Source of the DNA: a virus
IMG/VR virus record: IMGVR_UViG_3300032240_000412
Span: 32,423 to 96,422 of that record
DNA length: 64,000 nucleotides
Direction: 5' to 3' (one strand)
The stretch's first letter is position 1, and each line of letters begins with the position of its first letter. Both the position numbers and the translations under genes were made by a program. Under the pieces are notes generated by a model. It was given only the letters and a program-made list of their open reading frames with translations, did no database searches and was not told the origin of the DNA. Positions 16,501 to 62,000 of this stretch are shown piece by piece.

Positions 16501-19500
16501 ACAGATCTAATGCCAAATGTGGAATTTGGTAAGAGTGTTGTGGCCAACAAAGGCATGATAATTGTTGGCGCACCAAACGATAGTACCAACGTTGTCAATG
16601 GCGGTATACTGCATAAATTTATTAATTTAGACAACACTAGCAGTTGGCAAAAGATTAGAAGCGAAGAGTCGATAGTCGATGTAAGTAATATTGTTAAGTT
16701 GTTTACATACAAGAACTCAACACAAAAGATACAGTCGTACCTTGACTATATTGATCCTATTAGCGGAAAAATCTTAGGTGTAGCAGAACAAGACCTAGAC
16801 TTTAAAACAGTATTTGACCCAGCGTCTTATAATATTACAACTCGCACAGATGTATCAAATAATGCAGAATACTATTGGACTACCAACTACGTTGGCAAGC
16901 TATGGTGGAATTTGGATTTAATCAAGTATATTGACTATCGACAAGGTGAGTTATTGTACAGAGCGCAAAACTGGGCAAGACCGTTTCCTGGTTCAACAAT
17001 ACAAATTAACGAATGGGTACAGTCAGATGTGCTACCAAGCAAATGGGTATCGAGCGGAAAAGACGGTATTCCATTACATGCCGATGACAGCGCATACGTA
17101 CAAGATGTTTATGTAGATCGTACCACAGGAGTAATTACAACCAAATATTATTTCTGGGTATCTAATAGAACCACTGTGGCAACCGGTAGCAATAAAATTA
17201 ATAGTGCATCCGCGGTTCAAAGTTTAATTGAATCTCCAAGAACACAAGGCATTAATTATGCGGCGTTCTTACGCAACGATGCGTTTAAATTATTTGGTTT
17301 AGAAAATACCACAGACACAGACATTATTCTGCACGTTGACTATTCAATTCAGAATACTGAAAATTTAATTCACACTGAATATAATTTGGTGCAAGAAGGC
17401 AATCCACTGAGTGCTATTCCTCCTAAGATTTATTCCAAGATGGTTGACAGTATCACTGGATTCGATGAGGCAGGCCGAGTAGTACCAGACCCAACATTGT
17501 TGGCGTCAGACAAAATTGGTACAAGTATTCGCCCAAGGCAGACACTAATCAAAGACAATATTGCGGCAACAGAAAACTTTATTAGATATATTAATTCTGT
17601 GTTTATTAAAAATCCAATAGTTGAAAGATTTGATATTGGGCAATTCTTGTCAGAAGAACCTGTGCCAATGGCACCGATTACAGACGATCGTGGATTATTG
17701 GTTGGTGAATGGCACAAACAAGTTGCAGTATACGAGGATTTGAGTTACCTTGACTTAGCTACAATTCCCTACAGTGGTAATCAAATACGAGTACTAGTAA
17801 CAACAGTGACAGCACAAGACAATCTATGGGCAATATATTCATACGATTCGGATACTGCATCTTGGAACTTGTATAGAATACAAGCATACAAAACACCATT
17901 GACATGGGAGTACGCAGATTGGTACGATTCAACGTACAATCCTACTGTGCAACCCACGCATGTTGTTGCAACATACAAAGACGTTAAAACAATCAAAGTG
18001 TCAGTCAATGATACTATTAAAGTAAACAACGACGGCAAAGGTAAGTTTGTTATCTATCGTGTTAACTCTGACTATCGACTTGATCTAGTAGGATACGAAA
18101 ATGCTACTATACAACTTGGATCTTTGTTTTACGATATTGCTACAGCTAAAACAGGATTTGATGGCGCAAACTTTGATACATTACGGTTTGATCACAATAC
18201 CAGTGTTGAGTTGCGTAATATCATGAAAGGTATTCAAGATAATATATTTGTTGGATATCTAGCAAATGAATTTAGTAATTTATTCTTTGTATTGGTCAAT
18301 TATATTTTAAGCGAACAAAACAGCGTTGACTGGATATTTAAAACCAGCTTTATTAGTGTAGTTCATAAACTAAGAAAACTAGCACAATATCCTAGTTATA
18401 TCAGCGATAATCAAACTTACTACGAAGATTACATTAACGAAGTTAAGCCGTATAGAACAAAAATTAGAGAATATCTGTTGAACTACAGCGGAACAGACGT
18501 AGTACCAAACGATATAACTGACTACGATCCTTTGGTAAAATATAATTTTAACACTGGACATTTTTACAAACCAGAGTTGCCAACGGGAGTAGCAGAAGCC
18601 GCAAAATTCAGTATTGCGGAACTACAAATTGCTAAAGCTGGCACAGGATATTCATCAGAACCAGTGATTACAATATCTGCTCCAGGCGGACTTGGTAAGC
18701 AAGCAAAAGCTCGCGTGGTCATTGACTATGTGACAGGAAAGATTATTGATACCATCATAATAGATGCAGGATCAGGATACACTACCACTCCAGTGGTCAC
18801 TGTGGATGGTAATGGTTCGGGTGCAATACTGTATGCCCAATTGGGAAATAGCCCAGTTCGTAGTATGCTGACACATATCAAGTTTGACAGAATTTCTTAT
18901 AACAGCCCAGTCAAACGTTGGCCAGGCACAGGAGAGACTACCACATACCATAATGGAGATATTGTAAGTGCAGAAGGAACTGCTTATCAAGCATACAGTA
19001 CTGTTACAGTTAGCAACAAAGTCTTTAATCCGTCGTTGTTTACCAAAGTTGACGCCAGCACGTTTACAAATGCCAATGACCGAATAACTTCATACTATTA
19101 TAGTTCATTGGGACAACCCGATTTGGATCTAAAACGTTTGGTCTCTGGCGTTGACTACCCTGGTAACTATATCACCGGCTTGAAGTTCTTAGAAAACAAA
19201 GGTGAAATTGAAGTCAACCTTAGTGTCAGATCAGACTCTGTATCTGGTTCCAGAAACTTTGAGTGGTGGGCAGGCAATGCCACAATTACCAATGTTAGTT
19301 TTACAGCAGACGGTACTCAAGCACCAAACTTGCCAACTAAAACATATGGCTCTGGTGACTTGACATTGGTTGCTACACCTAATTTAGGGTATAGAAATCA
19401 AGTTGTGTGGGCGCCATTGACTGGTTATCTTAAAGACCAAGTAGTACGTTTTGAAGGCAAGTACTATACTGCTCGACCTAAATATCCTCCTTATGTTAGT

Positions 19501-25655: not shown

Positions 25656-25684
25656 TTGACATTTGGCAGTAGAGCATATATAAT
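25656..25684 (+). promoter_or_regulatory. Consensus sigma70 promoter of the modification island
   Basis: TTGACA at 25656-25661 and TATAAT at 25679-25684 are separated by exactly 17 bp, so both hexamers and spacing are consensus. The expected start of transcription (about 7 bases after the -10) coincides with the ATG at 25691. It is the only such promoter I found on the + strand and it drives into the accessory island, which could therefore be expressed early with host polymerase, unlike the late tail genes. Confidence 0.85.
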
Positions 25685-50364: not shown

Positions 50365-50618
50365 TCGTAAATTCGAATCTTCATATCAACAGGTTCTTTT
50401 TCGGCAATGCGAAGTTTATCTTCCATTGCTTCCTGTACCTGTATTACCTGTTCTTTTCCATATGGTGTATCGGAAGTGGCATGAATGATTTCAATTGCAT
50501 ACAACAAGTCATCACAGCATTGTTCAACTCGTGCAAGACGAGTTTGAAGTGTTGCAACCAGCTCACGTGCCTGCTTGGGCTTTAGAGCTGTAATTTCTTC
50601 TGCGGTAAGAATAATCAT
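50361..50618 (-). CDS. Small coiled-coil hypothetical protein
   Basis: 85 residues, helical: TALKPKQARELVATLQTRLA, then CCDDLLYAIEIIHA. Coupled at both ends by ATGA overlaps with the VWA gene and the 98-residue gene, so it is made from the same message as the MoxR partner protein. Confidence 0.6.
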   Translation of the reverse strand: MIILTAEEITALKPKQARELVATLQTRLARVEQCCDDLLYAIEIIHATSDTPYGKEQVIQVQEAMEDKLRIAEKEPVDMKIRIYE

Positions 50619-51886
50619 TTTGCAACCTCGTCATAATTGGCCCATACACCAAACTCAGGTTCGGCATCACGATTGTTTTTAATAATCCAAACAGTCTCAC
50701 AGTAGTCGCGTACACGGTCGGGTTCCCAACCAAAGAAGCAATAGTCAGTGAACATAATCAGCTTCTTGGGTTCCATACCTTTGTCTTGCAAGTATTCCCA
50801 AACACAATGTGGATCTGTTCCGCCGCCACCCATAGGTTGGTAACTGGCAATGTCTTCCATGTTGTCGCTAGTAAAGTCTTGTGGATTATATGTGTCAGTA
50901 TCCCAACATAGTACATGAATTTTGTACTCATCGTAGGATTCCATGATACCTTTAACTTCACTCAAGAATATTTTACTGTCCTCGTCACTGATACTGCCGG
51001 ACATGTCAATGGCAACAACAACATCAATTTGTTGTCCTGGAACCATGCCAGGAAAGACTGCATCCATGTGCCAACTACGACGGCTTGGACGCATCCAAGT
51101 AAAGTCGCTTTTAACTGTACTTTGGATTTGTTGTTGCAACAGTTCTCGCCAGTCCATAACAGGAGCAGTAAGGTCTTTGACCATACGTTTGACATTACCA
51201 GGCAAGTCTCCGGCACCGGCAGTCTGAGCCGCAGTAATAACAGCCTGTTTAATTTCATCACGGATTTGCTGTTTCTCTGCATCAGTCAAACGTGGTCGGC
51301 CATTGCCTTCTTTGTTGCCATCACCATTGCTGTCGCCTTCGCTGTCGCCTTCGTCACCGTCCAAGTGTTCGTCCAACAGTTGTTTGGCCAACTTGTCGAT
51401 ATCAATTTTTTCTGCGTTCTTGTACAGTAAGTCGTAGACTTCTTCTGCACTCATGCCTTTATACTTTGGATCGTACAAACAGCCAACCTTGGTAATCTTC
51501 TCACCAATTTTGTGTTCAATTAAGTCTGCGTTAACACAATAGTCGTCGGCAATGTTCCACAAACGTGGCTCACGATCACCACGGCGACCCATGTGGTCGT
51601 AAATGGCATGTAGCACTTCGTGTCCAAACAAGAACTCTACTTCACGCAAGCTCAACCTGTCTACAAATGCACTATTGTAATAGAAATGGCGTCCATCTGT
51701 CGCCGCAGTAGGGCACCAGTCGTCGGCATTTAGAATTTTAAAACGAGTAGCCATGTTGCCAAAGAACGGAGCCTTAAGCAACAGAGCAACACGAGCAGTG
51801 ATCAATTTATCACGTACACGGGCATCTACCTTGGGATCAGTTACAGTAACAACTTTGCTTTTTTCGGCTAGTGTAGTATCAGACAT
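50615..51886 (-). CDS. Metallopeptidase-like / VWA domain protein (MoxR partner)
   Basis: 423 residues. The N-terminal half carries FLFGHEVLHAIYDHMGRRGD with an HExxH zinc motif and IADDYCVNADLIE. A central acidic Asp/Gly/Asn linker (about 190-215) follows. The C-terminal VWA domain has a MIDAS motif (VVVAIDMSGSISDEDSKIF) and GGGGTDP. This domain pair is typical of partners of MoxR-type AAA+ ATPases, which use ATP to remodel or insert metals into a target. It is transcribed from its own promoter (51910-51938) behind the MoxR gene. AAGGAG lies 5-6 bases before the ATG. Confidence 0.85.
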   Translation of the reverse strand: MSDTTLAEKSKVVTVTDPKVDARVRDKLITARVALLLKAPFFGNMATRFKILNADDWCPTAATDGRHFYYNSAFVDRLSLREVEFLFGHEVLHAIYDHMGRRGDREPRLWNIADDYCVNADLIEHKIGEKITKVGCLYDPKYKGMSAEEVYDLLYKNAEKIDIDKLAKQLLDEHLDGDEGDSEGDSNGDGNKEGNGRPRLTDAEKQQIRDEIKQAVITAAQTAGAGDLPGNVKRMVKDLTAPVMDWRELLQQQIQSTVKSDFTWMRPSRRSWHMDAVFPGMVPGQQIDVVVAIDMSGSISDEDSKIFLSEVKGIMESYDEYKIHVLCWDTDTYNPQDFTSDNMEDIASYQPMGGGGTDPHCVWEYLQDKGMEPKKLIMFTDYCFFGWEPDRVRDYCETVWIIKNNRDAEPEFGVWANYDEVAK

Positions 51887-51909: not shown

Positions 51910-51938
51910 ATTGTATATTTTAATGAATTAACAGTCAA
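51910..51938 (-). promoter_or_regulatory. Early promoter P1 (TTGACT, 17 bp, TACAAT)
   Basis: -35 TTGACT at 51938-51933 and -10 TACAAT at 51915-51910 on the - strand. The spacer contains AATTC at positions 4-8. It directs the VWA gene. Confidence 0.7.
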
Positions 51939-51943
51939 TAAAA

Positions 51944-51971
51944 AGAGGACTTACGGATTGCTCCTGCCTCT
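51944..51971 (-). terminator. Possible weak terminator between MoxR and VWA genes
   Basis: On the - strand AGAGG (51971-51967) can pair with CCTCT (51948-51944), followed by a run of five T. The 18-base loop allows a small inner GGA/TCC stem. The region is GC-rich compared with its surroundings, so it is structured, but the stem is short. Confidence 0.3.
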
Positions 51972-51992
51972 GCCCGTGACTAGCGGAACCTT

Positions 51993-53096
51993 TTACTTAG
52001 CCGCCGCGGCAATTACATACTTGCCAAAACGTTTGTGGAACTCTTCAAAGCTGGGCAGTTTGCCTGGCAACAGTTTCAAATTGTAAGTGGTCAATGCAAC
52101 ACGAGCACCCATAACTACCAATTCTGTGGTAAAATTATCCATCATAAAGCGCAAGAAGTTCTCGCATTGGGCATGCCACGGATCCATTTTATTAGATGCA
52201 GTTGCAGTCTTGAACGAGTCCTGAAGCTCGTAGCACATACTAACAGTAAGCGAGTACATGGCAGAGATGTCCTTGGTCTTGAGCTCCTTGACCTTGCCTG
52301 CCAAAATATCTTCTGGCTTGGGCATCTGTCCGGCAACCTTGCGGTGAGCCATGAACTTGACAGCAAGACCTTCTCCCACTGTACCTGCAATAAGATCGGT
52401 AAGTGTGTCGTCTGCAATGGTATCGTCCTCAAGGAAGCGACTGACAAAGGTCCATGAACGTGGAGTAGCAAAACTACGTGAGCTCGAACGTGGGTCAAAG
52501 TCAAACAAGTCTTGTTTGGCAAAACTAATATAACCTACCACGTCTTTGTGTACACGGTTAGTAACAGCCCACTTTTCCCACGATGGAAAGTCCACACGCA
52601 TCTCTTGGTGAATGAAACGATTGCTCAGCGGAGTGGGCATACGATAGGTAACACCTTTGTCACTCTCGCGATTACCTGCGGCAACGATCACCACATTGTC
52701 TGGCAGTTTATATTTGCCTACACGACGGTTCAAAATAAGTTGATAACCTGACGCCTGTACAGCCGGAGCGGCCGCATTCATTTCGTCCAGGAACAAGACC
52801 ACAATAGGATACTGGCTGGCAGTTTCCTCGTCGGGCAAGTCAATTGGCGGTGCCCAATCCATAATGTTTTTCTCTTTGTGGTAGAACGGAATACCACGCA
52901 AGTCGGTTGGCTCCAACAAAGGCATACGCAGGTCGATCATCAAGCCACCAAGTTCTTCGGTAATGCCTGCTACCAATTCTGATTTACCAATACCAGGAGG
53001 ACCCCAAAGGAACACTGGCAGTTTGGCATTGAAGCATCGCAAAATGCTATTACGGGCGGATGTAGCAGTAACACTACGATTCTCAGTCACGGACAT
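51993..53096 (-). CDS. MoxR/CobS-like AAA+ ATPase
   Basis: 367 residues. Walker A LWGPPGIGKSELV, Walker B VVLFLDEMNAA, sensor-type VIVAAGNRES and TPLSNRFIHQEM with the arginine of the second region of homology. LEPTDLRGIPFYHKE is typical of the MoxR class. These hexameric ATPases act with a VWA/metallopeptidase partner, encoded next. Cyanophage cobS-type ATPases are relatives, so the label MoxR or CobS is not settled. The function in phage is not known. AAAGGAG precedes the ATG. Confidence 0.88.
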   Translation of the reverse strand: MSVTENRSVTATSARNSILRCFNAKLPVFLWGPPGIGKSELVAGITEELGGLMIDLRMPLLEPTDLRGIPFYHKEKNIMDWAPPIDLPDEETASQYPIVVLFLDEMNAAAPAVQASGYQLILNRRVGKYKLPDNVVIVAAGNRESDKGVTYRMPTPLSNRFIHQEMRVDFPSWEKWAVTNRVHKDVVGYISFAKQDLFDFDPRSSSRSFATPRSWTFVSRFLEDDTIADDTLTDLIAGTVGEGLAVKFMAHRKVAGQMPKPEDILAGKVKELKTKDISAMYSLTVSMCYELQDSFKTATASNKMDPWHAQCENFLRFMMDNFTTELVVMGARVALTTYNLKLLPGKLPSFEEFHKRFGKYVIAAAAK

Positions 53097-53125
53097 AAAA
53101 ACTCCTTTAGTTAATTTGAATATGT

Positions 53126-53154
53126 ATTATAAAATTAATTGAATTGTTCAGCAA
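53126..53154 (-). promoter_or_regulatory. Early promoter P2 (TTGCTG, 17 bp, TATAAT)
   Basis: A perfect -10 at 53131-53126 with a poor -35 (TTGCTG, 53154-53149) whose spacer still has AATTC at positions 4-8 like the other members. The -35 overlaps the 3' end of the 53135 gene. It directs the MoxR gene. Confidence 0.55.
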
Positions 53155-53608
53155 GTTCTTTTTCGAGCACTTGGCTCAAACGAACCAGACGACCTTTGAA
53201 CTCGCCATAAGTACTGCCAACAAACCATTCGCCATCTTCCATGACATAGTAGTAGTCAGCACCACAGTTGTCGCATTGTTCCAAGAACTCGTCGAACGTC
53301 TGTGCTACTTTCCACTCAGTCTCGGTTTCACCACGGTCACGGCCGTAAAACGTGCATGAATCTCCATGGTCCAACTCGTATTGCTCACGCTCTTCTTCGG
53401 AGATGTCCAAAGAGCTGAAGGCATGTTTTTCTCCGATGTTTTTGCGAAGGCTACTGAGGTCCCCAAGGGCCACGAGCTGGTTTGCTTTGGTGCTGTCATA
53501 AAACTTCTCCAAGATTTCGCCATTGTGTGCAATATAACCATCCCAGTGGCAATACACAGATTTGCATTTGTCACCGTGCATAACGCCAATTCTTGAACGA
53601 GTACCCAT
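53135..53608 (-). CDS. Conserved phage protein, MGTRSRIG family
   Basis: 157 residues beginning MGTRSRIGVMHGDKCKSVYC followed by HWDGY, with DSCTFYGRDRGETETEW, CDNCGADYYYVMED and FVGSTYGEF. The Gly-Thr-Arg-Ser start and the HWDGY motif are shared by a widespread family in phages and some bacteria with no known role. Acidic, with a possible Cys pair (CDNC). Single-gene unit behind promoter P3. Confidence 0.7.
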   Translation of the reverse strand: MGTRSRIGVMHGDKCKSVYCHWDGYIAHNGEILEKFYDSTKANQLVALGDLSSLRKNIGEKHAFSSLDISEEEREQYELDHGDSCTFYGRDRGETETEWKVAQTFDEFLEQCDNCGADYYYVMEDGEWFVGSTYGEFKGRLVRLSQVLEKELAEQFN

Positions 53609-53639
53609 TTGCTGATTCCTTTTTAATTACAATAAAAGT

Positions 53640-53668
53640 ATTATACAATAATTCGAATTAATGGTCAA
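53640..53668 (-). promoter_or_regulatory. Early promoter P3 (TTGACC, 17 bp, TATAAT)
   Basis: -35 at 53668-53663 and -10 at 53645-53640; spacer with AATTCG at positions 4-9. It directs the MGTRSRIG-family gene. Confidence 0.75.
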
Positions 53669-53669
53669 A

Positions 53670-53951
53670 TTACATTGACCAGTAAGTTTCGCTAGCAGGG
53701 TTACAGCACCATGGAGTATCTGCGTCAATGGTTACGTCTTTGCCTGTCATCAAGTTCTTGACAGTGACCTTGGGAGCCGTGTAAGTGTCACGAGCAACAA
53801 TGCTCAGTTCACCAGCACTCCAACCTGCTTTTTTGCAAAGACGGGTACGAGTAGCACGAGCGGCACCATAAGTTTTGTATGCACGGCTCTTGTTAGGACC
53901 GTCTGTGACAATTAAACCTGTACCTTTTGCAACGATTACATATGATGACAT
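53670..53951 (-). CDS. Small hypothetical protein, basic
   Basis: 93 residues from ATG 53951: SSYVIVAKGTGLIVTDGPNK then SRAYKTYGAARATRTRLC and KVTVKNLMTGKDVTIDAD. The in-frame ATG at 53990 overlaps the -10 box of promoter P4 and cannot be used by that transcript; GGAG 7 bases before 53951 supports the shorter form. Function not recognised. Confidence 0.65.
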   Translation of the reverse strand: MSSYVIVAKGTGLIVTDGPNKSRAYKTYGAARATRTRLCKKAGWSAGELSIVARDTYTAPKVTVKNLMTGKDVTIDADTPWCCNPASETYWSM

Positions 53952-53981
53952 TTTCTGGCTCCGTTTTGTTACTGTTCTTAT

Positions 53982-54010
53982 AGTATACATTAAACGGAAT
54001 TATGGGTCAA
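53982..54010 (-). promoter_or_regulatory. Early promoter P4 (TTGACC, 17 bp, TATACT)
   Basis: -35 at 54010-54005, -10 at 53987-53982. The spacer has AATTC at 4-8 and TTTAATG directly before the -10. It decides the start of the 53670-53951 gene. Confidence 0.75.
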
Positions 54011-54037
54011 CCGAAAGATTCTGCCTGTTTTTTAAGC

Positions 54038-54065
54038 AAAAAAGCCCTATTTTTGGGGCTTTTTT
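54038..54065 (-). terminator. Intrinsic terminator (possibly bidirectional)
   Basis: AAAAAAGCCC (54038-54047) pairs with GGGCTTTTTT (54056-54065) around an 8-base loop. Both strands end in a T-run. It lies 20 bases past the stop of the 54085 gene and before promoter P4, closing the cluster of small coupled genes. Confidence 0.85.
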
Positions 54066-54084
54066 CTGTTGTTTTTAAGCAACA

Positions 54085-54318
54085 TTATCCATAGAAATGC
54101 TTGTAGGACATACCACCAACATAAATGGATAGCAGTACAGCATTAGACGTGATCATGGAAGGATGTCGCATTTGCAGACTTACTATTAGCCACAATCCAG
54201 TTTCTAAGAAACACATAATGGCACCAAGAGGATAGTAGTCCAATGATACACATACAGCTCCGGCGATAGAAATCGCTGAAGCAGTCCATTCAATTATTGC
54301 TTGTTTATCAAACTTCAT
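54085..54318 (-). CDS. Small membrane protein
   Basis: 77 residues with two or three hydrophobic segments (TASAISIAGAVCVSLDYYPL, GAIMCFLETGLWLIVSL, NAVLLSIYVGGM). The spacing resembles a piece of a multi-pass transporter such as PnuC but is too short for one. ATGA-coupled to the 54315 gene; last gene before the terminator. Confidence 0.6.
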   Translation of the reverse strand: MKFDKQAIIEWTASAISIAGAVCVSLDYYPLGAIMCFLETGLWLIVSLQMRHPSMITSNAVLLSIYVGGMSYKHFYG

Positions 54319-54557
54319 TCACGCCCAACATCAGGAAAATGACTAATAATTAAATCTAATGCTTCGATAGTTCGTATATTTCCTGCTACATCTTCGGGGT
54401 GTAACCAGTAACCATCTGGATTGGAATCTGTCTTAGGATTCTTCTTCCATTGTTTTAATTCTTTCTTTAGATACGCACGATAGTCTTTTAAGTTAAGACT
54501 GGTAATGCGATCCGCAGTTTCACTGTCAATGGTTAATGGCCCAATTCGTTTGTTCAT
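54315..54557 (-). CDS. Small hypothetical protein
   Basis: 80 residues, highly charged: SLNLKDYRAYLKKELKQWKK and NPDGYWLHPEDVAGNIRTIE. ATGA overlaps at both ends. Not recognised. Confidence 0.55.
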   Translation of the reverse strand: MNKRIGPLTIDSETADRITSLNLKDYRAYLKKELKQWKKNPKTDSNPDGYWLHPEDVAGNIRTIEALDLIISHFPDVGRE

Positions 54558-54787
54558 TCTTCAACTCCAAATCCTAAGTTAGTTGCATATTCTCGAATGG
54601 TGGGTGCGCCGTTCAGGCCATCTTCATCCGTGAACACAGGGTTGTTGGTATGAGTATACCCATCATAAAACGAGATGAACCAAGCGGGTCGACCATAACT
54701 CACACAAGGTGTGGCCTGCCCTACCCGCCGGCCATTCACATAAGGTGGTCGATCAATGCTGATCAGATACTGACTGATCTGGTTCAT
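54554..54787 (-). CDS. Small hypothetical protein
   Basis: 77 residues, aromatic and Gly-rich: YVNGRRVGQATPCVSYGRPA and WFISFYDGYTHTNNPVF. ATGA overlaps at both ends. Not recognised. Confidence 0.55.
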   Translation of the reverse strand: MNQISQYLISIDRPPYVNGRRVGQATPCVSYGRPAWFISFYDGYTHTNNPVFTDEDGLNGAPTIREYATNLGFGVEE

Positions 54788-54987
54788 TCCGCAACTCCAA
54801 AATGTTTTAGCAAATCATCGCAATGTTCGCCTTGTCTTGATTCCCAATAGTCTATTCTTTTAGCACATTCCCGAACAATCAACTCGGCGAACTTTGTGTG
54901 ATAAACTTCAAGCCATTGTTCTGGTGCTAGCCCAGTTGGCACACTTTGCTTTGCCTGTTCAACAAGAGTTTGAATTTGTTGTTTCAT
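54784..54987 (-). CDS. Small helical hypothetical protein
   Basis: 67 residues from ATG 54987, whose ATGA overlaps the stop of the upstream gene; the ATG at 55005 is less likely for that reason. KFAELIVRECAKRIDYWESR and a final DLLKHFGV look like an amphipathic helical protein common in phage early regions. Function unknown. Confidence 0.6.
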   Translation of the reverse strand: MKQQIQTLVEQAKQSVPTGLAPEQWLEVYHTKFAELIVRECAKRIDYWESRQGEHCDDLLKHFGVAE

Positions 54988-55217
54988 ATTTTTAATGTTT
55001 CCCAAAACAGAGTAGGGTCATTCTTAGGAACCGTAGCCACAGTCTCTATCCATCCGCACTCAATTGCTTTAATAAGTTGTTTGGCAACATGCTCTGGACA
55101 ACTGCTATTGATCTGCACTCCTGCGCGATCTGCCACTACCATAGTTCCCTGCAATTGGAAACTTGGGTCTCCTTTGCGTAAAGTAACCCAAGGACTTTCT
55201 TGTACAGTAAAAGACAT
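54984..55217 (-). CDS. Small hypothetical protein
   Basis: 77 residues: SPWVTLRKGDPSFQLQGTMV then VADRAGVQINSSCPEHVAKQ. The N-terminal half is beta-like, the second half helical. Stop overlaps the next start (ATGA). Not recognised. Confidence 0.55.
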   Translation of the reverse strand: MSFTVQESPWVTLRKGDPSFQLQGTMVVADRAGVQINSSCPEHVAKQLIKAIECGWIETVATVPKNDPTLFWETLKI

Positions 55218-55219
55218 GC

Positions 55220-55420
55220 TTAGTCAGTATCAATAGGCATGCACCGTGTGGGGAATATCAATCCATACTGTACATACATGTTTTCTTTTTTGTCTTTTGT
55301 CATCACAACACCATCAAGGCACACTTTGGCTACGGGCGGTTCAGTGATCAGCTGAAACAGGCCCACAACAATACAAGCCCACAAAAGGCCTGTAAGTACT
55401 ATATACGTCCATTTACTCAT
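55220..55420 (-). CDS. Small single-pass membrane protein
   Basis: 66 residues from ATG 55420 (GTGGAG about 7 bases upstream; a 55438 ATG is further inside the upstream gene). One N-terminal membrane helix (YIVLTGLLWACIVVGLFQLI), then a short polar domain with two Cys (KVCLDG, PTRCMP). An N-in/C-out topology with an oxidised Cys pair is possible. Function unknown. Confidence 0.55.
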   Translation of the reverse strand: MSKWTYIVLTGLLWACIVVGLFQLITEPPVAKVCLDGVVMTKDKKENMYVQYGLIFPTRCMPIDTD

Positions 55421-55619
55421 TGCAATCTCCACAATCAATTCTCCACGGACAACGAACCAGTATCATTGTACTGCAATCGTCATGTCCCCAACACGCCGGG
55501 GCCTCAGTTCCTCTTAGGTTCTTGATGTCTTTCAGGATGCTCAGTCTTTCGGGACTGTTCAGTTGTCCAGCATTGCCCAACATAGCTTCTTTGTCTAAGA
55601 GGTCTTGAATTAAGTTCAT
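55413..55619 (-). CDS. Small Cys-containing hypothetical protein
   Basis: 68 residues, helical N-terminus (NLIQDLLDKEAMLGNAGQLN, LSILKDIKNLRG) and a Cys-rich end (APACWGHDDC, RCPWRIDCGDC) that could hold a zinc. Overlaps the next gene by 8 bases. Confidence 0.55.
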   Translation of the reverse strand: MNLIQDLLDKEAMLGNAGQLNSPERLSILKDIKNLRGTEAPACWGHDDCSTMILVRCPWRIDCGDCNE

Positions 55620-55633
55620 ACTGCATTATAGCA

Positions 55634-55852
55634 TTAAGCTGATAATTTATCAAGCAGATATCCGTGGATGATATCCATCTCACTCTGCTCAACATAGAAG
55701 TCTGTGGTTGGATCATAGTACTGGCCCGCCTTGTTGTCATAATACAACACACGGCCAGAAAAGTTAAAAGGCCCTTCTAGGCCCCGGCGTGGACCATACT
55801 TGACACGCATCTGGTCCATTTGATTCTTGTCTGCTAGTACAGCATATCCCAT
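55634..55852 (-). CDS. Small hypothetical protein
   Basis: 72 residues: MGYAVLADKNQMDQMRVKYG then FSGRVLYYDNKAGQYYDPTT and DFYVEQSEMDIIHGYLL. AAGAGG lies 7-8 bases before the ATG. It follows the 45-residue gene after 11 bases. Not recognised. Confidence 0.6.
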   Translation of the reverse strand: MGYAVLADKNQMDQMRVKYGPRRGLEGPFNFSGRVLYYDNKAGQYYDPTTDFYVEQSEMDIIHGYLLDKLSA

Positions 55853-55863
55853 GTTGTTGCCTC

Positions 55864-56001
55864 TTAGAAATGTAAAGGGTTACGTCGGCGCAAGTGTGCC
55901 AATGCAGATTCTTTGGTGTCAAAGCGACCTGAGATTGGTGTTTGATGTGCGCCACGCACAATGTACCATCCACCCAATAGACCGTTGTATACGACTTTCA
56001 T
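55864..56001 (-). CDS. Very small conserved phage protein (45 residues)
   Basis: ATG 56001 to TAA 55864. The product is MKVVYNGLLGGWYIVRGAHQ then TPISGRFDTKESALAHLRRR and NPLHF. AAGGAG sits 5 bases before the ATG. The pattern GWYIVRGxHxTPISGxFxTKxxA is that of a short beta-beta-alpha protein seen in many phages. It fills an otherwise empty 158-base gap in a packed operon. Confidence 0.75.
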   Translation of the reverse strand: MKVVYNGLLGGWYIVRGAHQTPISGRFDTKESALAHLRRRNPLHF

Positions 56002-56010
56002 AATGACTCC

Positions 56011-56286
56011 TTAGACCAGATCAACTTGAACTTGAAATTTGCCTTCTGTGCATCCTAGGCCAGTTTCTAGATTGCGCTGACCTGCTTTCTTAGAAATGTG
56101 ACGAATGGCGCTAAGACGTTCTAATGCATTCCAAACAGCGGTGCGAGCGTTAACAGTGGCCATGGATTCTGACATCTGCTTGATAGTCATGTACATGCCA
56201 ACATCGTATTCGGAGCCACCCTGTTTAAAGATAACACGAAATTTTTGGCTGTTCTTAAAGCCTGGGATAATTGTTTTCATACGCAT
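56011..56286 (-). CDS. Small hypothetical protein
   Basis: 91 residues from ATG 56286 (GGAGG 7 bases upstream, TAATG overlap with the preceding stop). QKFRVIFKQGGSEYDVGMYM then NARTAVWNALERLSAIRHIS. A beta-hairpin followed by a helix is likely. Shares promoter P5 with the gene before it. Not recognised. Confidence 0.6.
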   Translation of the reverse strand: MRMKTIIPGFKNSQKFRVIFKQGGSEYDVGMYMTIKQMSESMATVNARTAVWNALERLSAIRHISKKAGQRNLETGLGCTEGKFQVQVDLV

Positions 56287-56570
56287 TATACAGCCTCCAG
56301 CATGTTAGCAGGCACATTGTACCGACCTTGTGGAGTGTTCACAAGTACATATTTGATCTTGACTTTGTCAACTGTACCGGTGTAGGTCATGCCGTTGCGG
56401 TTGCTGGTAAACTTCACAGTGTCACCAACTCGCAGGGCACGAGCTTGTTGCTTGGTCATTTGAGCTCTAGCAAATTTCACAGCATCAATCACGCTGGCCA
56501 GCTCGGTATTAGTCAAATTACCAAACATGATGGTAGAATTGATTTGTTGGATGGTGCTAAGTCGTTCCAT
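56286..56570 (-). CDS. Small protein with SH3/KOW-like segment
   Basis: 94 residues from ATG 56570. An upstream ATG (56594) lies at the expected transcription start of P5 and lacks a Shine-Dalgarno, while AGGAA precedes 56570. The N-terminal helix is FGNLTNTELASVIDAVKFAR; the C-terminal part RVGDTVKFTSNRNGMTYTGT and VDKVKIKYVLVNT looks like a small SH3/KOW-type barrel. A nucleic-acid or protein contact role is possible. Confidence 0.6.
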   Translation of the reverse strand: MERLSTIQQINSTIMFGNLTNTELASVIDAVKFARAQMTKQQARALRVGDTVKFTSNRNGMTYTGTVDKVKIKYVLVNTPQGRYNVPANMLEAV

Positions 56571-56601
56571 TTCAAGTTCCTTTTTAAGTTTCAATACAAG
56601 T

Positions 56602-56630
56602 ATTGTACATTAATTCGAATTACTGGTCAA
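56602..56630 (-). promoter_or_regulatory. Early promoter P5 (TTGACC, 17 bp, TACAAT)
   Basis: -35 at 56630-56625 (overlapping the stop of the 56627 gene) and -10 at 56607-56602. Spacer with AATTCGAATTAATG, almost the same as P3. Confidence 0.75.
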
Positions 56631-57019
56631 ATGCCTGCCAGACTTTTCATAAATTTAGCACGTTCCTCTGCTGGCGTTAGTACTTTCTTAGTACGTTTAA
56701 CCAACATGGAAGTGGGCCTAATCACAGGCTTCTTGACAGTAACCTTGACAGTTTTCTTGGGGGTAGCAAACGGATTTTCGTCCTTGACCATTGCAGTCAG
56801 TAAAGCCTCGGCTTCTTTGGTATCAACTTGAAAACGTCCCAGGTTAGTGAGCACATACTTAATCGCTTCATTCTTGAACATTGGAATAGGCAATTTATCC
56901 ATGTCAACTTCAGTGTCACCCAGCTTCTCAAGTTGAGTAGCACGATTCTTGTTGGTGGCAACGCGAAATTTCAGTACGCCATTGACACGGCTAAAGCCGG
57001 CAAAAGTAATCAAAGCCAT
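56627..57019 (-). CDS. Conserved hypothetical protein, basic C-terminus
   Basis: 130 residues. LITFAGFSRVNGVLKFRVAT and KYVLTNLGRFQVDTKEAEAL form the N-terminal part; the C-terminal third is Lys/Pro/Thr/Val-rich (TPKKTVKVTVKKPVIRPTS) and probably disordered. Follows the 57030 gene after 10 bases with GGAG before the ATG. Not recognised. Confidence 0.6.
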   Translation of the reverse strand: MALITFAGFSRVNGVLKFRVATNKNRATQLEKLGDTEVDMDKLPIPMFKNEAIKYVLTNLGRFQVDTKEAEALLTAMVKDENPFATPKKTVKVTVKKPVIRPTSMLVKRTKKVLTPAEERAKFMKSLAGI

Positions 57020-57029
57020 TTTTATCTCC

Positions 57030-57347
57030 TTAAACTGTATAAGAGTGACCAGTTAACACATTCACCACCTTGGCGCCCGGACCAAATGCGGCTCGCATTT
57101 CAAACAATTCTTCTTCGCTTGGGCCTTTGTAGTTTCGAGCATAAGCCTCAAGAGCAATACGGTCTTCAATTTTGCGTTGAGCCAAACTGTTAGAAAGTTC
57201 TTGGTTTCCAATCCAACCAGCGGTTACAAATTCTTGCAACATGTCTTCAAAAGGAATACGATCGTTGCTGTTCCAACGAACCACTGGGCCAGACTCGCTG
57301 TTGGTTTCATCAATGTAAAACTGGGTTTTGTATTTTGCATCTACCAT
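57030..57347 (-). CDS. Conserved hypothetical protein
   Basis: 105 residues: VDAKYKTQFYIDETNSESGP, RIPFEDMLQEFVTAGWIGNQ and EELFEMRAAFGPGAKVVNVL. Proteins of this look are common in early regions of marine T4-like phages, without a role known to me. First gene of the P6 transcript; AGGAG lies 5-6 bases before the ATG. Confidence 0.65.
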   Translation of the reverse strand: MVDAKYKTQFYIDETNSESGPVVRWNSNDRIPFEDMLQEFVTAGWIGNQELSNSLAQRKIEDRIALEAYARNYKGPSEEELFEMRAAFGPGAKVVNVLTGHSYTV

Positions 57348-57377
57348 TTTCTGCTCCTGTTTGCTTACTGTTCTTAT

Positions 57378-57406
57378 AGTATAGATTAAATGGATTTTTG
57401 TGTCAA
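57378..57406 (-). promoter_or_regulatory. Early promoter P6 (TTGACA, 17 bp, TATACT)
   Basis: -35 at 57406-57401, -10 at 57383-57378. Spacer ends TTTAATC before the -10, like P4 and P7. It directs 57347-56627. Confidence 0.75.
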
Positions 57407-57429
57407 GTTTTGGGCTAAAAAGCTCAAAA

Positions 57430-57459
57430 AAAAAGTGTTGCTAAAAAACAACACTTTTT
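57430..57459 (-). terminator. Intrinsic terminator, 11-bp stem
   Basis: AAAAAGTGTTG (57430-57440) pairs with CAACACTTTTT (57449-57459) around an 8-base loop; on the - strand the stem runs into a T-run. It ends the transcript of the 57512 gene ahead of P6. Confidence 0.85.
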
Positions 57460-57470
57460 AGGGTAAAATC

Positions 57471-57509
57471 TGCTTAATTTTTAAGCAATTTTTGCTTGAT
57501 TTTTAAGCA
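57471..57509. repeat. Two near-identical 17-base hairpins
   Basis: TGCTTAATTTTTAAGCA (57471-57487) and TGCTTGATTTTTAAGCA (57493-57509) differ by one base and each can fold back with a 6-7 bp stem. They lie between the stop of the 57512 gene and the terminator. Half of the motif (TTTTTAAGCA) also flanks the terminator at 54038-54065. Confidence 0.6.
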
Positions 57510-57511
57510 GG

Positions 57512-58345
57512 TTAAGTCCAAAGCCCGTGGCGTATCTTGATAAGGCGGATCATCATAGCCTCGTCTTCTTTTTCATAATTTGCTTCGATCTTTTGAAGTG
57601 ACTTGAGGGCTTTGTCGCTCATCTTCTTAAGCTCGGGACTTTTGTCATTGCCCCAGCTTAGTCGACCATTATTGGCAATACGACTGGCTTCACAGTAGGC
57701 ACTCCATCCACTGGCTTCGTGAGGGTCTGGTCGGTTACGATATGTAGTGGTCCACCATGTGTACAAATCTAGTATTTCTTGTGCCTTGACTGCCTGTGGA
57801 GTCAGTTCGCCGAGACCTTCAAAGTCTGCACCAACTTCATCTTCTTTCCAACGAAGATTACGTTGCCATTCCAAGTTGTCAAGACCAGCTTGTGGACAGC
57901 GCCATGTACGGATACGCCACCAGCCCACAGCCCACCAAGGCATATTGTATTTGGACCTTTCTTCTTCGTTCCAGGCAAGGTGCCACCAGGCTAGTTCCAC
58001 TTCAACAAAATCCACAAGTTCATTAAAAAGACAGGGAAGAAAACGATTTCCCACATCACACCATTCACCACGAGCAATGTCCCGAGGATGGGCAGTAAGA
58101 GCATGTGTGCGAGTAACCCAGCGGTTGTTAAGGTAGTATTTGATAGCATAGATTTTATCTGGAATATAGTATACAAAGTTTTGAACATAATCAAGTCCTT
58201 CTTCGGCTAGCCAATAACGTACAGGATTGTAACGTTTTGCTTTATCTTCCCACTCGTTCCAGCCTTCGCCAGTTTTAGCACCACCCTTGGCAGTACCGCG
58301 AAGCCAGTCGGCAAATTTACTGCAACTCCAGTAATGATTTCTCAT
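57512..58345 (-). CDS. Conserved Trp-rich phage protein
   Basis: 277 residues, unusually rich in Trp, Tyr and Arg: ELAWWHLAWNEEERSKYNMP, WWAVGWWRIRTWRCPQAG and LDLYTWWTTTYRNRPDPHEA. A family of this look occurs in many large phages and I know no function. ATGA-coupled to the membrane protein gene upstream; followed by hairpins and a terminator. Confidence 0.7.
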   Translation of the reverse strand: MRNHYWSCSKFADWLRGTAKGGAKTGEGWNEWEDKAKRYNPVRYWLAEEGLDYVQNFVYYIPDKIYAIKYYLNNRWVTRTHALTAHPRDIARGEWCDVGNRFLPCLFNELVDFVEVELAWWHLAWNEEERSKYNMPWWAVGWWRIRTWRCPQAGLDNLEWQRNLRWKEDEVGADFEGLGELTPQAVKAQEILDLYTWWTTTYRNRPDPHEASGWSAYCEASRIANNGRLSWGNDKSPELKKMSDKALKSLQKIEANYEKEDEAMMIRLIKIRHGLWT

Positions 58346-58668
58346 GATGTAAATTCCTTAATTGATAAATGGTCGGGATTGTTAGAAATTGGCGTTACCA
58401 GCAATCCTGTATTTTCAGGAAATCGCTCTTTGAACATAGAGCACATTTCTTCTAGTGTGTTACCATGTGCTAGATAATTGCCTTTTTTAGCATTATAGGC
58501 AAATAGTCCAGCTTCATTTCGCTCAATCACAATCCAGATGTATTTTGGGTCTGTGTGTACTGCGGGAGCATCTAACTTTAGTTCTTTGTCTTTGTTAGGC
58601 CAAACAACACGAGACGCCCACCAAAGACATCCCACTAATAATACCAAGTCCCAAAAATCAAAACTCAT
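58342..58668 (-). CDS. Membrane-anchored hypothetical protein
   Basis: 108 residues from ATG 58668 (GGAG 6 bases upstream; ATG 58680 is at most ~5 bases from the P7 transcription start). One N-terminal membrane helix (FWDLVLLVGCLWWASRVVW), then a cytoplasmic-type domain (IWIVIERNEAGLFAYNAKKG, EEMCSMFKERFPENT). Function unknown. Confidence 0.6.
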   Translation of the reverse strand: MSFDFWDLVLLVGCLWWASRVVWPNKDKELKLDAPAVHTDPKYIWIVIERNEAGLFAYNAKKGNYLAHGNTLEEMCSMFKERFPENTGLLVTPISNNPDHLSIKEFTS

Positions 58669-58669
58669 T

Positions 58670-59431
58670 TTATGCTCCAAGCAAAACTTTATTGTACATT
58701 AAACGGCTTACTAGGTCAACACGTTGCTTGATCGAACGAGCGCCTAATACCACTACACTATATAGGTGATTGTTCTTTTCAACCAACAAGGTAACACAGT
58801 ATCCGGCAGGATTGGTAAATCCTGTCTTGCCCAACACAATGTTATCAAATTTTTCCAACAACACATGGTTAGTACTGTTAAGAGTAATAACCTGAGACTT
58901 TTTCTTTCGCTTGCTGACAACTTGAAAATTCTTTTTGGTACTGGTAGTACGTATAAAATTATATCCATAGGCGGCAAGAGCCAGTATACCAACTTCTCTC
59001 GCAGTTGATTTATTTTCAATGTTCAATCCAGAAGCATCTGCAAACGTGGAATTATACATACCAATGGTACGAGCCTTGATATTCATTAATAACATAAAAG
59101 TATCTCTACCACCAGGGAATGTGTCAGCCAAGGTCTCTGCCGCACCATTATCGCTTTTGACAAGCATGGCCGTTAGCAGTTCTTCTACAGTATAAGTCTT
59201 ACTGGGCAATTGACTGCCCAGTTTGGTTTTGTATTCTATGGGTTTAGTCAAGTCACTGTAGTGATCCAACACAACCATAGCAGTCATTAATTTTGTAATG
59301 CTTGCAATGCTTCTTACTTCATCGGCATTCTGTTCTACCACAGTAGAGTGTTGATTTTGATCATACACTAACACAGTTTCTGCAAAAGCCGATGACACCA
59401 CAAACATCATCAGTATGATTAAATAGCGCAT
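58670..59431 (-). CDS. Secreted D-Ala-D-Ala carboxypeptidase/endopeptidase (peptidase S11)
   Basis: 253 residues with a clear signal peptide (MRYLIILMMFVVSSAFA). The three PBP motifs are present: S44-I-T-K47, S93-D-N95 and K202-T-G204. The length covers only the catalytic domain, as in PBP7/PbpG-type endopeptidases, and lacks the C-terminal anchor domain of DacA. It would act in the periplasm on peptide stems or cross-links of peptidoglycan, either helping lysis or adjusting the wall during infection. Serine PBP genes are uncommon in phages, whose endolysins usually belong to other families. Confidence 0.88.
   Translation of the reverse strand: MRYLIILMMFVVSSAFAETVLVYDQNQHSTVVEQNADEVRSIASITKLMTAMVVLDHYSDLTKPIEYKTKLGSQLPSKTYTVEELLTAMLVKSDNGAAETLADTFPGGRDTFMLLMNIKARTIGMYNSTFADASGLNIENKSTAREVGILALAAYGYNFIRTTSTKKNFQVVSKRKKKSQVITLNSTNHVLLEKFDNIVLGKTGFTNPAGYCVTLLVEKNNHLYSVVVLGARSIKQRVDLVSRLMYNKVLLGA
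58691..58719 (-). promoter_or_regulatory. Early promoter P7 (TTGACC, 17 bp, TACAAT)
   Basis: -35 at 58719-58714 and -10 at 58696-58691, inside the 3' end of the D,D-peptidase gene. TTTAATG precedes the -10 as in P4. It directs the membrane protein and the Trp-rich protein. Confidence 0.7.
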
Positions 59432-59438
59432 TTACTAT

Positions 59439-59951
59439 TTATTCGTTCATTCCCATCTCAATGCGTAGGATTTTCTCCACATATTTGTTCAAAGTCATGT
59501 CGTTTTCGTGTGCCAACAGCATCAATTGGTGCAGAGATTCCTTGTCAAGGTTTAGCGGTACACTGATGCTTGTATCGTAATCTTCGCCATCACGGATAGC
59601 AAGACACTTTTGGATAAAGTCATCGTCGACTTCTAAATCCGTATAGTTGACACCATCCCAGGCTTCGTTTAAATCAACATTACGCAAAAACGATTCTTCA
59701 CTGTGCTTTTTACGCTTGTTTTCGACGATCATGCGATAGGCACGATCGTTGGTATAATCACTTACTGTAACTTCGTAGACCTTTTGAGTCTTGGTACTAA
59801 ACACAATGCTAAAACTGTATCCACCTTTACCATGGACACCATTCCATGAGTCTAAGCAATAGGCATTAGCGCCATAACATTGCCAACCATAGTCACCGCC
59901 TTCGGTGATCTTGTAGTCAACCAATTCCATCCATTCTTTCATTGAGATCAT
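59439..59951 (-). CDS. Conserved phage protein with ribbon-helix-helix-like C-terminus
   Basis: 170 residues from ATG 59951 (AAAGG 6 bases upstream); earlier in-frame ATGs run into the preceding gene. N-terminal domain: EGGDYGWQCYGANAYCLDSW and TKTQKVYEVTVSDYTNDRAY. The C-terminus ISVPLNLDKESLHQLMLLAH with NDMTLNKYVEKILR has the strand-helix-helix form of HicB/Arc-like DNA-binding tails. A regulatory role is possible. Confidence 0.6.
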   Translation of the reverse strand: MISMKEWMELVDYKITEGGDYGWQCYGANAYCLDSWNGVHGKGGYSFSIVFSTKTQKVYEVTVSDYTNDRAYRMIVENKRKKHSEESFLRNVDLNEAWDGVNYTDLEVDDDFIQKCLAIRDGEDYDTSISVPLNLDKESLHQLMLLAHENDMTLNKYVEKILRIEMGMNE

Positions 59952-59968
59952 TTTATACCTTTCGAAGA

Positions 59969-60214
59969 TTAATAACCACGCTTCATACGTTCGCTTGCTT
60001 CTTGACAGAAGATGCATAATTCGCATCCTTTAACGGCCAATTGTCGTGCTTCAGGAATGTCCTCGCCGCATTCCACACAATGACTCAAGCTCGGTCCAGT
60101 CTTTATTTTAGCACGAACTGCTTCAAGTGCGCGATCGTTAAAGATCATTACGGACATCTGTGCCTGTTCTGTTTCTTCGGATGTTTCACGTTGGATGTTG
60201 ACTATTTCGTTCAT
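59969..60214 (-). CDS. TraR/DksA-type zinc finger protein
   Basis: 81 residues from ATG 60214, a length close to TraR. The C-terminal motif SHCVECGEDIPEARQLAVKG followed by CELCIFCQEASER has the C-x2-C ... C-x2-C arrangement of DksA/TraR zinc fingers. TraR-like proteins bind the RNA polymerase secondary channel and mimic DksA plus ppGpp, which would let the phage redirect host transcription. An ATG at 60304 would add 30 residues overlapping the previous gene and is less likely. Confidence 0.78.
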   Translation of the reverse strand: MNEIVNIQRETSEETEQAQMSVMIFNDRALEAVRAKIKTGPSLSHCVECGEDIPEARQLAVKGCELCIFCQEASERMKRGY

Positions 60215-60255
60215 ATTGATACTTTCAAAAAATACTGAGTTATTTACCAATTCGT

Positions 60256-60813
60256 TTACAAAACCAGGTGCTTGAAGTACGTGTAATGTTTTTCCAATGT
60301 CCAAGTCTTTGGATCAATTACAGTACCGTCATGTGTTTGATACTGGGCCGCAAACACATTGGTGTAACGTTCAAACGGCAACCACATATTAGGAGTCTTA
60401 CTAGCCCAGCCTGCATCCTTAAGAGCCATGTGTTTAGCACGGCTCAGGCGCACAGTAGGAGTGTTAAGTGCCTGCTCTACAGAGATCTTGCCTGCTAACA
60501 ACAAATCACGAATACGACTTGCAGGAATTAGGTGCTCAAAGTCGCATTCTTCATCTGCCCCAACTTCGTGGTAGTGTGCTAACATACCGTCACGTTGTTG
60601 GATACAGTACTCGTGATATCGACGCAGGTAGTAATCAATGTCGTTACGAATCTCTCGCAACAACTGTTGGTCATTACGTACAGCCGCATACTCTGCAACT
60701 AAACGAGTTAGGTTGCGAGTACAGTAACTGGCTACAGTTTGATAAGTCTCGGCAGTACGCTTGGTCTTACCATAAACTGGAGCCGTAAATTGTTCGAGAG
60801 ATTCTTTTAACAT
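60256..60813 (-). CDS. Conserved phage protein, possibly HNH-like
   Basis: 185 residues. The N-terminal half is helical (NLTRLVAEYAAVRNDQQLLR). The middle CDFEHLIPASRIRDLLLAG and SRAKHMALKDAGW, PNMWLPFERY recall an HNH-type nuclease core (EHxIP as the first histidine), but the metal ligands are not convincing. It starts 1 base after the ParB-like gene stop, so they are co-translated. Confidence 0.5.
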   Translation of the reverse strand: MLKESLEQFTAPVYGKTKRTAETYQTVASYCTRNLTRLVAEYAAVRNDQQLLREIRNDIDYYLRRYHEYCIQQRDGMLAHYHEVGADEECDFEHLIPASRIRDLLLAGKISVEQALNTPTVRLSRAKHMALKDAGWASKTPNMWLPFERYTNVFAAQYQTHDGTVIDPKTWTLEKHYTYFKHLVL

Positions 60814-60814
60814 A

Positions 60815-61873
60815 TTATGCCTCTACGGTAGGAAACAAACCTTTTGCTACATTGCCTTCTTCAATGCCCATTTTGCTACCTTCACCGTGATATGGCAGTT
60901 TCAATGTACCGCCACTGATGATGTGCAGTTCGCGCATGAAGTTAGCCATAGCGTCCGGAGCAGACCAGCTGGCACCCGGGCGTACATGCGCCCATTGTGT
61001 TTTACATTTGGCGTGAACTAGCGAGCTAGACTTATAGCAGTTATCCTTGATACTCTTAAGTAAAGTTTTCATCCACCCTGCAGGTAACTTGTCTGCTGGA
61101 TTTGTACTAGAGATGCGATGCAACTCATACAATCCAATAAACACACCTTGATCAATTTCTTCTTGCAACGGAAATACAGTTTGTATGGCATCTAAGATAG
61201 CATACAAGGTATTTCCTGTGTCATCAACTTCAATTGCCTTCTGTGCATACTTAAAGTGACTAAAGAATCGGTCGTTGTCGCCACGCAGATTGTCGCTATT
61301 GCGTGAGTTCTTATCTTGAAGGTCAATGCCAGCGGCATCAAACTTGTCCTGCATTGTCTTGGCACGAACTACCTTGACATCACGACTACCATTCTTGTAG
61401 CGTACCAGAGCATTACGGTGCAAGTCACCAGGAGTCAGTCGTTTAACACCAGTGTCATTCAGCAGTTCAAACGCATAGCTGGCAAAGTTAGGATCATCGG
61501 TTTCTACCACAGCACAAGGCACTTCAGTAAAACCTAATAGGCCAGCCGCAATGGTACGGTGTTGTGCGTCATACAAATAAATTGTAGGCTTGCTAAGAAC
61601 ACGACAAGCACTACCGGTACTGCAAATACGTGGATCCCATTTTGACATGATATTGATAATATGCTTGTGAATCACATCACGTTGCACTTCGTAGTCAATC
61701 CAAAGATCTTCAATCTTGATCATTGAACTGTTAGGGAATTTATGTGATAGAGCCCGAGCACGAGCTCGCCATGCATCAAGGTGTTGTTGTGTCACACCAT
61801 AGTGTGCTTTGAGTTGTTTCTCGACTTCTGTAATAACATCAGTCAGTTTTCGTGTAAGGCGTTTTGCGGCCAT
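60815..61873 (-). CDS. ParB/Srx-fold domain protein
   Basis: 352 residues. Residues ~50-130 carry IKIEDLWIDYEVQRDVIHKH, YLYDAQHRTIAAGLLGFTEV and PCAVVE, the ParB/sulfiredoxin-like fold with the DxQHR motif. ParB-type domains bind CTP or ATP and act as DNA-binding clamps or nucleases. The rest (NSDNLRGDNDRFFSHFKYAQ, VFIGLYELHRISSTNPADKL) is phage-specific. It has its own consensus promoter and an unusually long structured leader, then a near-fused partner gene, so expression is probably controlled. Confidence 0.75.
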   Translation of the reverse strand: MAAKRLTRKLTDVITEVEKQLKAHYGVTQQHLDAWRARARALSHKFPNSSMIKIEDLWIDYEVQRDVIHKHIINIMSKWDPRICSTGSACRVLSKPTIYLYDAQHRTIAAGLLGFTEVPCAVVETDDPNFASYAFELLNDTGVKRLTPGDLHRNALVRYKNGSRDVKVVRAKTMQDKFDAAGIDLQDKNSRNSDNLRGDNDRFFSHFKYAQKAIEVDDTGNTLYAILDAIQTVFPLQEEIDQGVFIGLYELHRISSTNPADKLPAGWMKTLLKSIKDNCYKSSSLVHAKCKTQWAHVRPGASWSAPDAMANFMRELHIISGGTLKLPYHGEGSKMGIEEGNVAKGLFPTVEA

Positions 61874-61898
61874 AAAGTTTCTCCTTGGGGTTAAGACA

Positions 61899-61946
61899 GA
61901 GCACTATGCTCCTACCGCTAATTGAACTAATGTTGCACTATGCAAC
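61899..61946 (-). promoter_or_regulatory. Twin-hairpin leader of the ParB-like gene
   Basis: The ~93-base leader has two hairpins built on the same core GCACTATGC (+ strand, 61901-61909 and 61935-61943). GAGCACTATGCTC has a 5-bp stem and GTTGCACTATGCAAC a 6-bp stem, centres 34 bp apart. The stretch between them on the - strand resembles a tRNA D-arm, but no other tRNA part follows. It could be a protein-binding RNA element or a DNA operator. Confidence 0.6.
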
Positions 61947-61971
61947 CGGTGTTCGCCTAGCAAGTATATGG

Positions 61972-62000
61972 ATTATACAGGATAATTTGTTTATTGTCAA
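61972..62000 (-). promoter_or_regulatory. Early promoter P8, consensus (TTGACA, 17 bp, TATAAT)
   Basis: -35 TTGACA at 62000-61995 and -10 TATAAT at 61977-61972 with a 17-bp spacer. Both boxes are perfect, but the spacer lacks the AATTC motif of the other early promoters. It directs the ParB-like gene. Confidence 0.85.

Follow-up and report, generated by a model that had tools for sequence, protein, structure and literature searches.

The early promoters (Pe) of bacteriophage T4 are strong UP/-35/TGn/-10 promoters with an additional consensus (PMC2988021). For T4-like phages, composite promoter-terminator cassettes, the PeSLs (Arbiol 2010; Comeau 2014), are described in PMC4503421. Positions -18/-17 of a promoter are known as the "Z-element" and positions -15/-14 as the extended -10 (PMC5101437).

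The promoter family described here resembles the T4 early promoters in its sigma70-type boxes at 17 bp, in a conserved spacer next to -35 and -10, and in its many copies, mostly on one strand, with the extra consensus common to numerous promoters within one genome. The sequence itself is different, with TTTACTTT...ATGTGGTATAAT in T4 versus GG-TTGACC-AAAWnCC-TTTTGC/TTTAATG here, and a conserved leader is an addition over the T4 early promoters. The likeness would be that of a promoter which works like the T4 early class, not of a sequence member. Like the PeSLs, the sites are intergenic, repeated in the genome and placed before small variable genes; the cassette recurs before unrelated genes of one genome. 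A stem-loop beside the early-type promoter, as in the PeSLs, is enriched here but present at a minority of sites (27%), and a conserved leader is added. The T4 middle promoters (MotA box and -10) also carry extra conserved DNA around -35 to -21; here, however, the -35 is kept, the MotA box is absent, and no MotA domain or AsiA was found above the cut-off in a search that did detect AsiA and the C-terminal domain of MotA in the T4 control. Promoters of PA5oct found by the same pattern showed no such motif by eye. A T4-late element in the spacer was considered and rejected, as TCTAAATA was not consistently enriched and TTGAC lay upstream in only 7/78. The sites probably correspond to the early promoters of T4 and to the PeSL cassettes, with the same layout, a sequence other than that of T4, and an added standard leader. 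An earlier description of the motif was not found in the open literature searched and may exist elsewhere. With a probability of roughly two in three, we consider them a clade-specific extended core promoter of the strong sigma70 type, which spans -37 to +1 and is read by the host RNA polymerase.

The Window and Its Relatives

The window, i.e., the whole stretch of 64,000 nucleotides analyzed here, corresponds to bases 32423-96422 of a virus record that is 96,422 bases long, about two thirds of the record. The record is a fragment from an uncultured tailed phage, probably of jumbo size. Comparison with 50,697 phage records gave no match to the window at the DNA level. The window encodes an AAA ATPase and a baseplate hub/tail lysozyme-like protein, which place it with the large myoviruses, the nearest cultured ATPase relatives being PA5oct-like Pseudomonas phages (49% identity). 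As relatives, 80 IMG/VR loci with closer ATPases (best 92% identity) were used; the compared genomes are mostly fragments, and promoter classes were set by sequence. A different phage of 356,865 bases (G011) was the source of a spacer-only profile. The window also contains a single open reading frame of 4,269 amino acids (7549-20358, +) and a phage-carried D-alanyl-D-alanine carboxypeptidase (58670-59431, -; Peptidase S11, E 2.7e-39). A DksA/TraR-type zinc-finger protein (59969-60304, -; Pfam PF01258, E 1.6e-11; PHROG 54) is encoded in the same region as the promoters and is a possible polymerase modulator.

Promoter Sites and Their Spacer Motif

In the window, 9 minus-strand sites with exact 17-bp spacers were found (Table 1). 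The preliminary description had counted eight; its exact spacers and its single weak -35 (TTGCTG at 53154) were recovered, its count was not. As it had reported, AATTC occupies spacer positions 4-8 at five sites (56630, 54010, 53668, 53154, 51938), and C is present at position 8 in seven, namely these five, 58719 and 57406. The TTTAATG said to adjoin several -10 boxes is exact only at 58719 and 54010, with the variants TTAATG at 56630 and TTTAATC at 57406. The sites 62000 (-) and 25656 (+) indeed combine a perfect consensus with the lack of the spacer motif, and 55653 (-) likewise lacks it. The leader ATAAGAACAGTAA is common to promoters 54010 and 57406.

Table 1. Promoters and terminator-like hairpins in the window. 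Sites are named in the text by the first base of the -35; spacer ranks are those of the G011 spacer-only profile.
Feature	Position	Strand	Remarks
Perfect-consensus motif-less promoter, other class	61972..62000	-	first gene 60815-61873
Partial-motif promoter TTGACC-tagtaagccgtttaatg-TACAAT	58691..58719	-	ATG at 58668; marginal spacer score, p = 0.005
Terminator-like hairpin, 12-bp stem and T-run	57430..57459	-	23 nt upstream of promoter 57406
Motif promoter TTGACA-caaaaatccatttaatc-TATACT	57378..57406	-	AGGAG leader, ATG at 57347; spacer rank 1/192,812
Motif promoter TTGACC-agtaattcgaattaatg-TACAAT	56602..56630	-	AAGGA leader, ATG at 56570; spacer rank 10
Motif-less promoter TTGATA-aattatcagcttaatgc-TATAAT	55625..55653	-	ATG at 55619, 5 nt past -10; leaderless-type start
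Terminator-like hairpin	54040..54063	-	29 nt upstream of promoter 54010
Motif promoter GG-TTGACC-cataattccgtttaatg-TATACT	53982..54010	-	ATG at 53951; spacer rank 2
Motif promoter TTGACC-attaattcgaattattg-TATAAT	53640..53668	-	ATG at 53608; spacer rank 7
Weak -35 motif promoter TTGCTG-aacaattcaattaattt-TATAAT	53126..53154	-	before AAA ATPase gene 51993-53096; spacer rank 97
Motif promoter TTGACT-gttaattcattaaaata-TACAAT	51910..51938	-	before DUF2201 metallopeptidase/VWA-like gene 50615-51886; spacer rank 23
Perfect-consensus motif-less promoter, other class	25656..25684	+	

At a frequency of 0.00145 per position for AATTC, the probability of finding it in at least 5 of 9 sites is 8e-13; allowing for every pentamer and every position raises this to 1e-8. 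Using the spacer-only profile of G011, six of the sites came out between rank 1 and rank 97 among 192,812 positions (Table 1), while 62000 (-), 55653 (-), and 25656 (+) did not match. Between 48 and 64 kb, a scan for -35/-10 pairs in general yielded no enrichment (38 found versus 32.5 expected). The signal is carried by the spacer and its constant length of 17 bp, not by generic -35/-10 boxes. In 1.10 Mb of loci outside the training set, 49 further sites were found versus 0 in the control. Absence of the motif from other promoters, or its commonness off promoters, had been named beforehand as speaking against it, and neither was observed.

Anatomy of the Extended Promoter

In the relatives the full unit reads GG-TTGACC-n-AAAWnCC-(n)-TTTTGC/TTTAATG-TATAAT and is usually followed by a leader of about 24 nt, AUAGUAAnnAAAAAGGAG-AUG, with a terminator hairpin ahead in some cases. 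Placing the -10 at -12 to -7, so that spacer position i corresponds to -30+i, GG lies at -37,-36, TTGACC at -35 to -30, AAAW at -28 to -25, CC at -22,-21, and TT at -18,-17, followed by either TGC (-15 to -13) or an ATG that adjoins the -10, then Y at -1 and A at +1. In G011, TTGAC-TATAAT-like sites at 17 bp were counted 34 times on one strand and 0 times on the other, with 0-8 at other spacings. Iterated profiles converged on the class with GG-TTGACC and the conserved spacer, which is also present in G003, G008, G007, G001, and G010 and hardly in G004 and G013. In a spacer-blind test, 66 sites with a -35 ending in C contained 6.5 bits of spacer information versus about 1 bit for 97 others (2,000 label permutations: mean 2.48, sd 0.38, max 4.24), with some orthologous promoters common to several genomes and the sites thus not fully independent. 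GG, C6, AA4-5, and C8 occur together (Fisher p 2e-7 to 0.02). Using a score above 18, the left half was matched 43 times; 42 of these matches were followed by a -10 at a spacing of precisely 17 bp, and spacings of 13-16, 18, and 19 bp gave none. As it occurs at one phase to the -10 only, the left half behaves like a portion of the core promoter rather than like a free operator.

A total of 94 distinct cassettes was gathered by pattern from viral contigs, and the columns outside the pattern were read. They showed A at +1, the predicted start, in 89% and a pyrimidine at -1 in 96%. The flank upstream of GG was near random (0.01-0.5 bits), and the leader was conserved up to the Shine-Dalgarno sequence and near random past it. 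In most cases the start codon follows the -10 at 29-32 nt. Terminator-like hairpins with T-runs were found at most 75 nt upstream of 18/66 motif sites versus 5/62 of the remaining promoters and 14/420 places taken at random. In G011, the spacer motif is retained at some sites lacking the leader, which makes promoter and leader separable.

Spacer conservation was almost nil in the other 17-bp sigma70-like sites of the same phages, in agreement with the earlier suggestion that the motif-less promoters form another class. These data support the view that the extended element, one of the contacts proposed at the outset, is a conserved unit marking a class distinct from the motif-less sigma70-like promoters of the same genomes.

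Several other observations were made on 17-bp promoters. Many carry an ATG exactly 6 nt past the -10 (18/97 with a non-C -35, 6/70 with C), such as window 55619-55625 (-) and G011 168296, 92143, 55123, 118476, and others; with the A of this ATG as the expected transcription start, leaderless mRNAs are predicted. TCTAAATA-like sequences are found in TTGACA spacers (G003:126533, 135315; G004:97804; G008:117221, 125637; G011:611, 13798). Another subgroup, L030-L058, has a different recurrent spacer, TTGACAAATGGTCATTTTGGTGC-TATAAT, upstream of the ATPase gene, and G013 holds two TTGACTTTTGGTTA sites. Given these variants, spacer signatures may differ from lineage to lineage.

Many small proteins with no homologue in the set of genomes compared are encoded behind motif promoters, as are, in several genomes, the AAA ATPase and the DUF2201 metallopeptidase/VWA-like protein. 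The genes served fit, but do not prove, pre-replicative expression. A protein of 724-728 amino acids behind a motif promoter in G003 and G008 looks T4 RIIA-like by eye only.

Recognition of the Unit

The 3' half of the unit falls on documented polymerase positions, where T12,T13 coincide with -18/-17 and, in the TTTTGC form, T15 G16 with -15/-14; together with the T4 early-promoter model, this favours reading by the host polymerase. The holoenzyme would recognize the whole unit, with sigma region 4 on the -35, the beta'-zipper/sigma3 at -18/-17, sigma3 at the extended -10, and sigma2 at the -10. The unit, its leader of about 24 nt with a strong Shine-Dalgarno sequence and, in some cases, the terminator ahead would form a portable cassette, from which small genes and those of the AAA/metallopeptidase pair would be expressed strongly and probably before replication. 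The statement that sigma70 does not need spacer identity was overstated, since T4 early promoters have a consensus beyond the boxes and the 3' half lies on polymerase contacts. DNA shape, another contact proposed earlier, fits poorly by itself: C is found in 66% versus G in 6% at position 8, and A in 78% versus T in 18% at position 4. Base identity is tied to the strand in this way, which makes shape alone unlikely. The Z-element and extended -10 do not explain AAAW, CC, GG, and C(-30), and the TTTAATG form is one base off TGn.

Alternative Explanations

We know of no polymerase contact for GG (-37,-36), AAAW (-28 to -25), and CC (-22,-21). The sigma70 optimum at -30 is A, and the C found there is a mark of the class though off this optimum. 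For these two reasons a phage factor was kept as the main rival, although we regard it as unlikely. Under this reading, a DNA-binding protein encoded by the phage or brought in with the virion, either an activator or an early shut-off repressor, would contact -37 to -21, i.e., GG, C(-30), AAAW, and CC, working only beside the sigma-bound polymerase and marking the class together with it, in the way MotA uses its box in the middle promoters of T4. Such a factor would be in line with the strand-specific base identity, with the -35 changes tolerated at motif sites (TAGACC, TTGTCC, TTGCCC, CTGACC), and with other strong-looking promoters in the same genomes that lack GG, C(-30), AAAW, and CC. It is opposed by the negative MotA/AsiA search, by the half element occurring at no other phase to a -10, and by the T4 early promoters, where an extended consensus exists in the absence of such a factor. 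Neither the window proteins nor presence/absence profiling yielded a candidate regulator: 11 proteins were present in G003 and G011 but missing from both G004 and G013, and by eye none could be recognized as DNA-binding. An operator dyad was also considered and rejected; the palindrome TAATTCGAATTA occurs in two window spacers, but no dyad is consistent across genomes, the covariation centres, from a set mixing motif and non-motif sites, being 14.5 (best) in G003, none clear in G008, and 19 in G011. If a phage factor were involved, the promoter class would be assigned by a regulatory principle separate from MotA/AsiA.

It is improbable that the cassette was recently duplicated or gene-converted within each genome, by PeSL-type shuffling, with the spacer having no function of its own. 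Near-identical copies do exist (four in G001; G003 41699, 47857, 59190; G008 25586, 34094), and spacer identity is higher within genomes (0.59) than between them (0.47). However, conservation ends sharply at GG and past the Shine-Dalgarno sequence with flanks at chance (0.26-0.28), the motif persists where the leader is another one or is missing (G011 168296, 92143, 55123), and it is kept between genomes whose common proteins are about 50% identical.

Very improbable is a motif representing the host's own strong-promoter consensus. The layout is of the sigma70 type, but the strict pattern occurred 0 times in 84,980 cellular genomes versus at least 120 matches in viral contigs, a looser pattern gave 10 scattered cellular matches in several unrelated phyla, and the same phages contain motif-less promoters. 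Chance or AT-rich composition, with which the unenriched generic scan would agree, is practically negligible in view of the spacer ranks from an independent genome and the sites found outside training.

Implications

Within the extended core promoter favoured here, one segment (-37/-36, -30, -28 to -21) stands out as strongly conserved and without an assigned polymerase contact. The signature of the promoter lets promoters, start sites, and likely early genes be called from metagenomes for uncultured, apparently common large phages.
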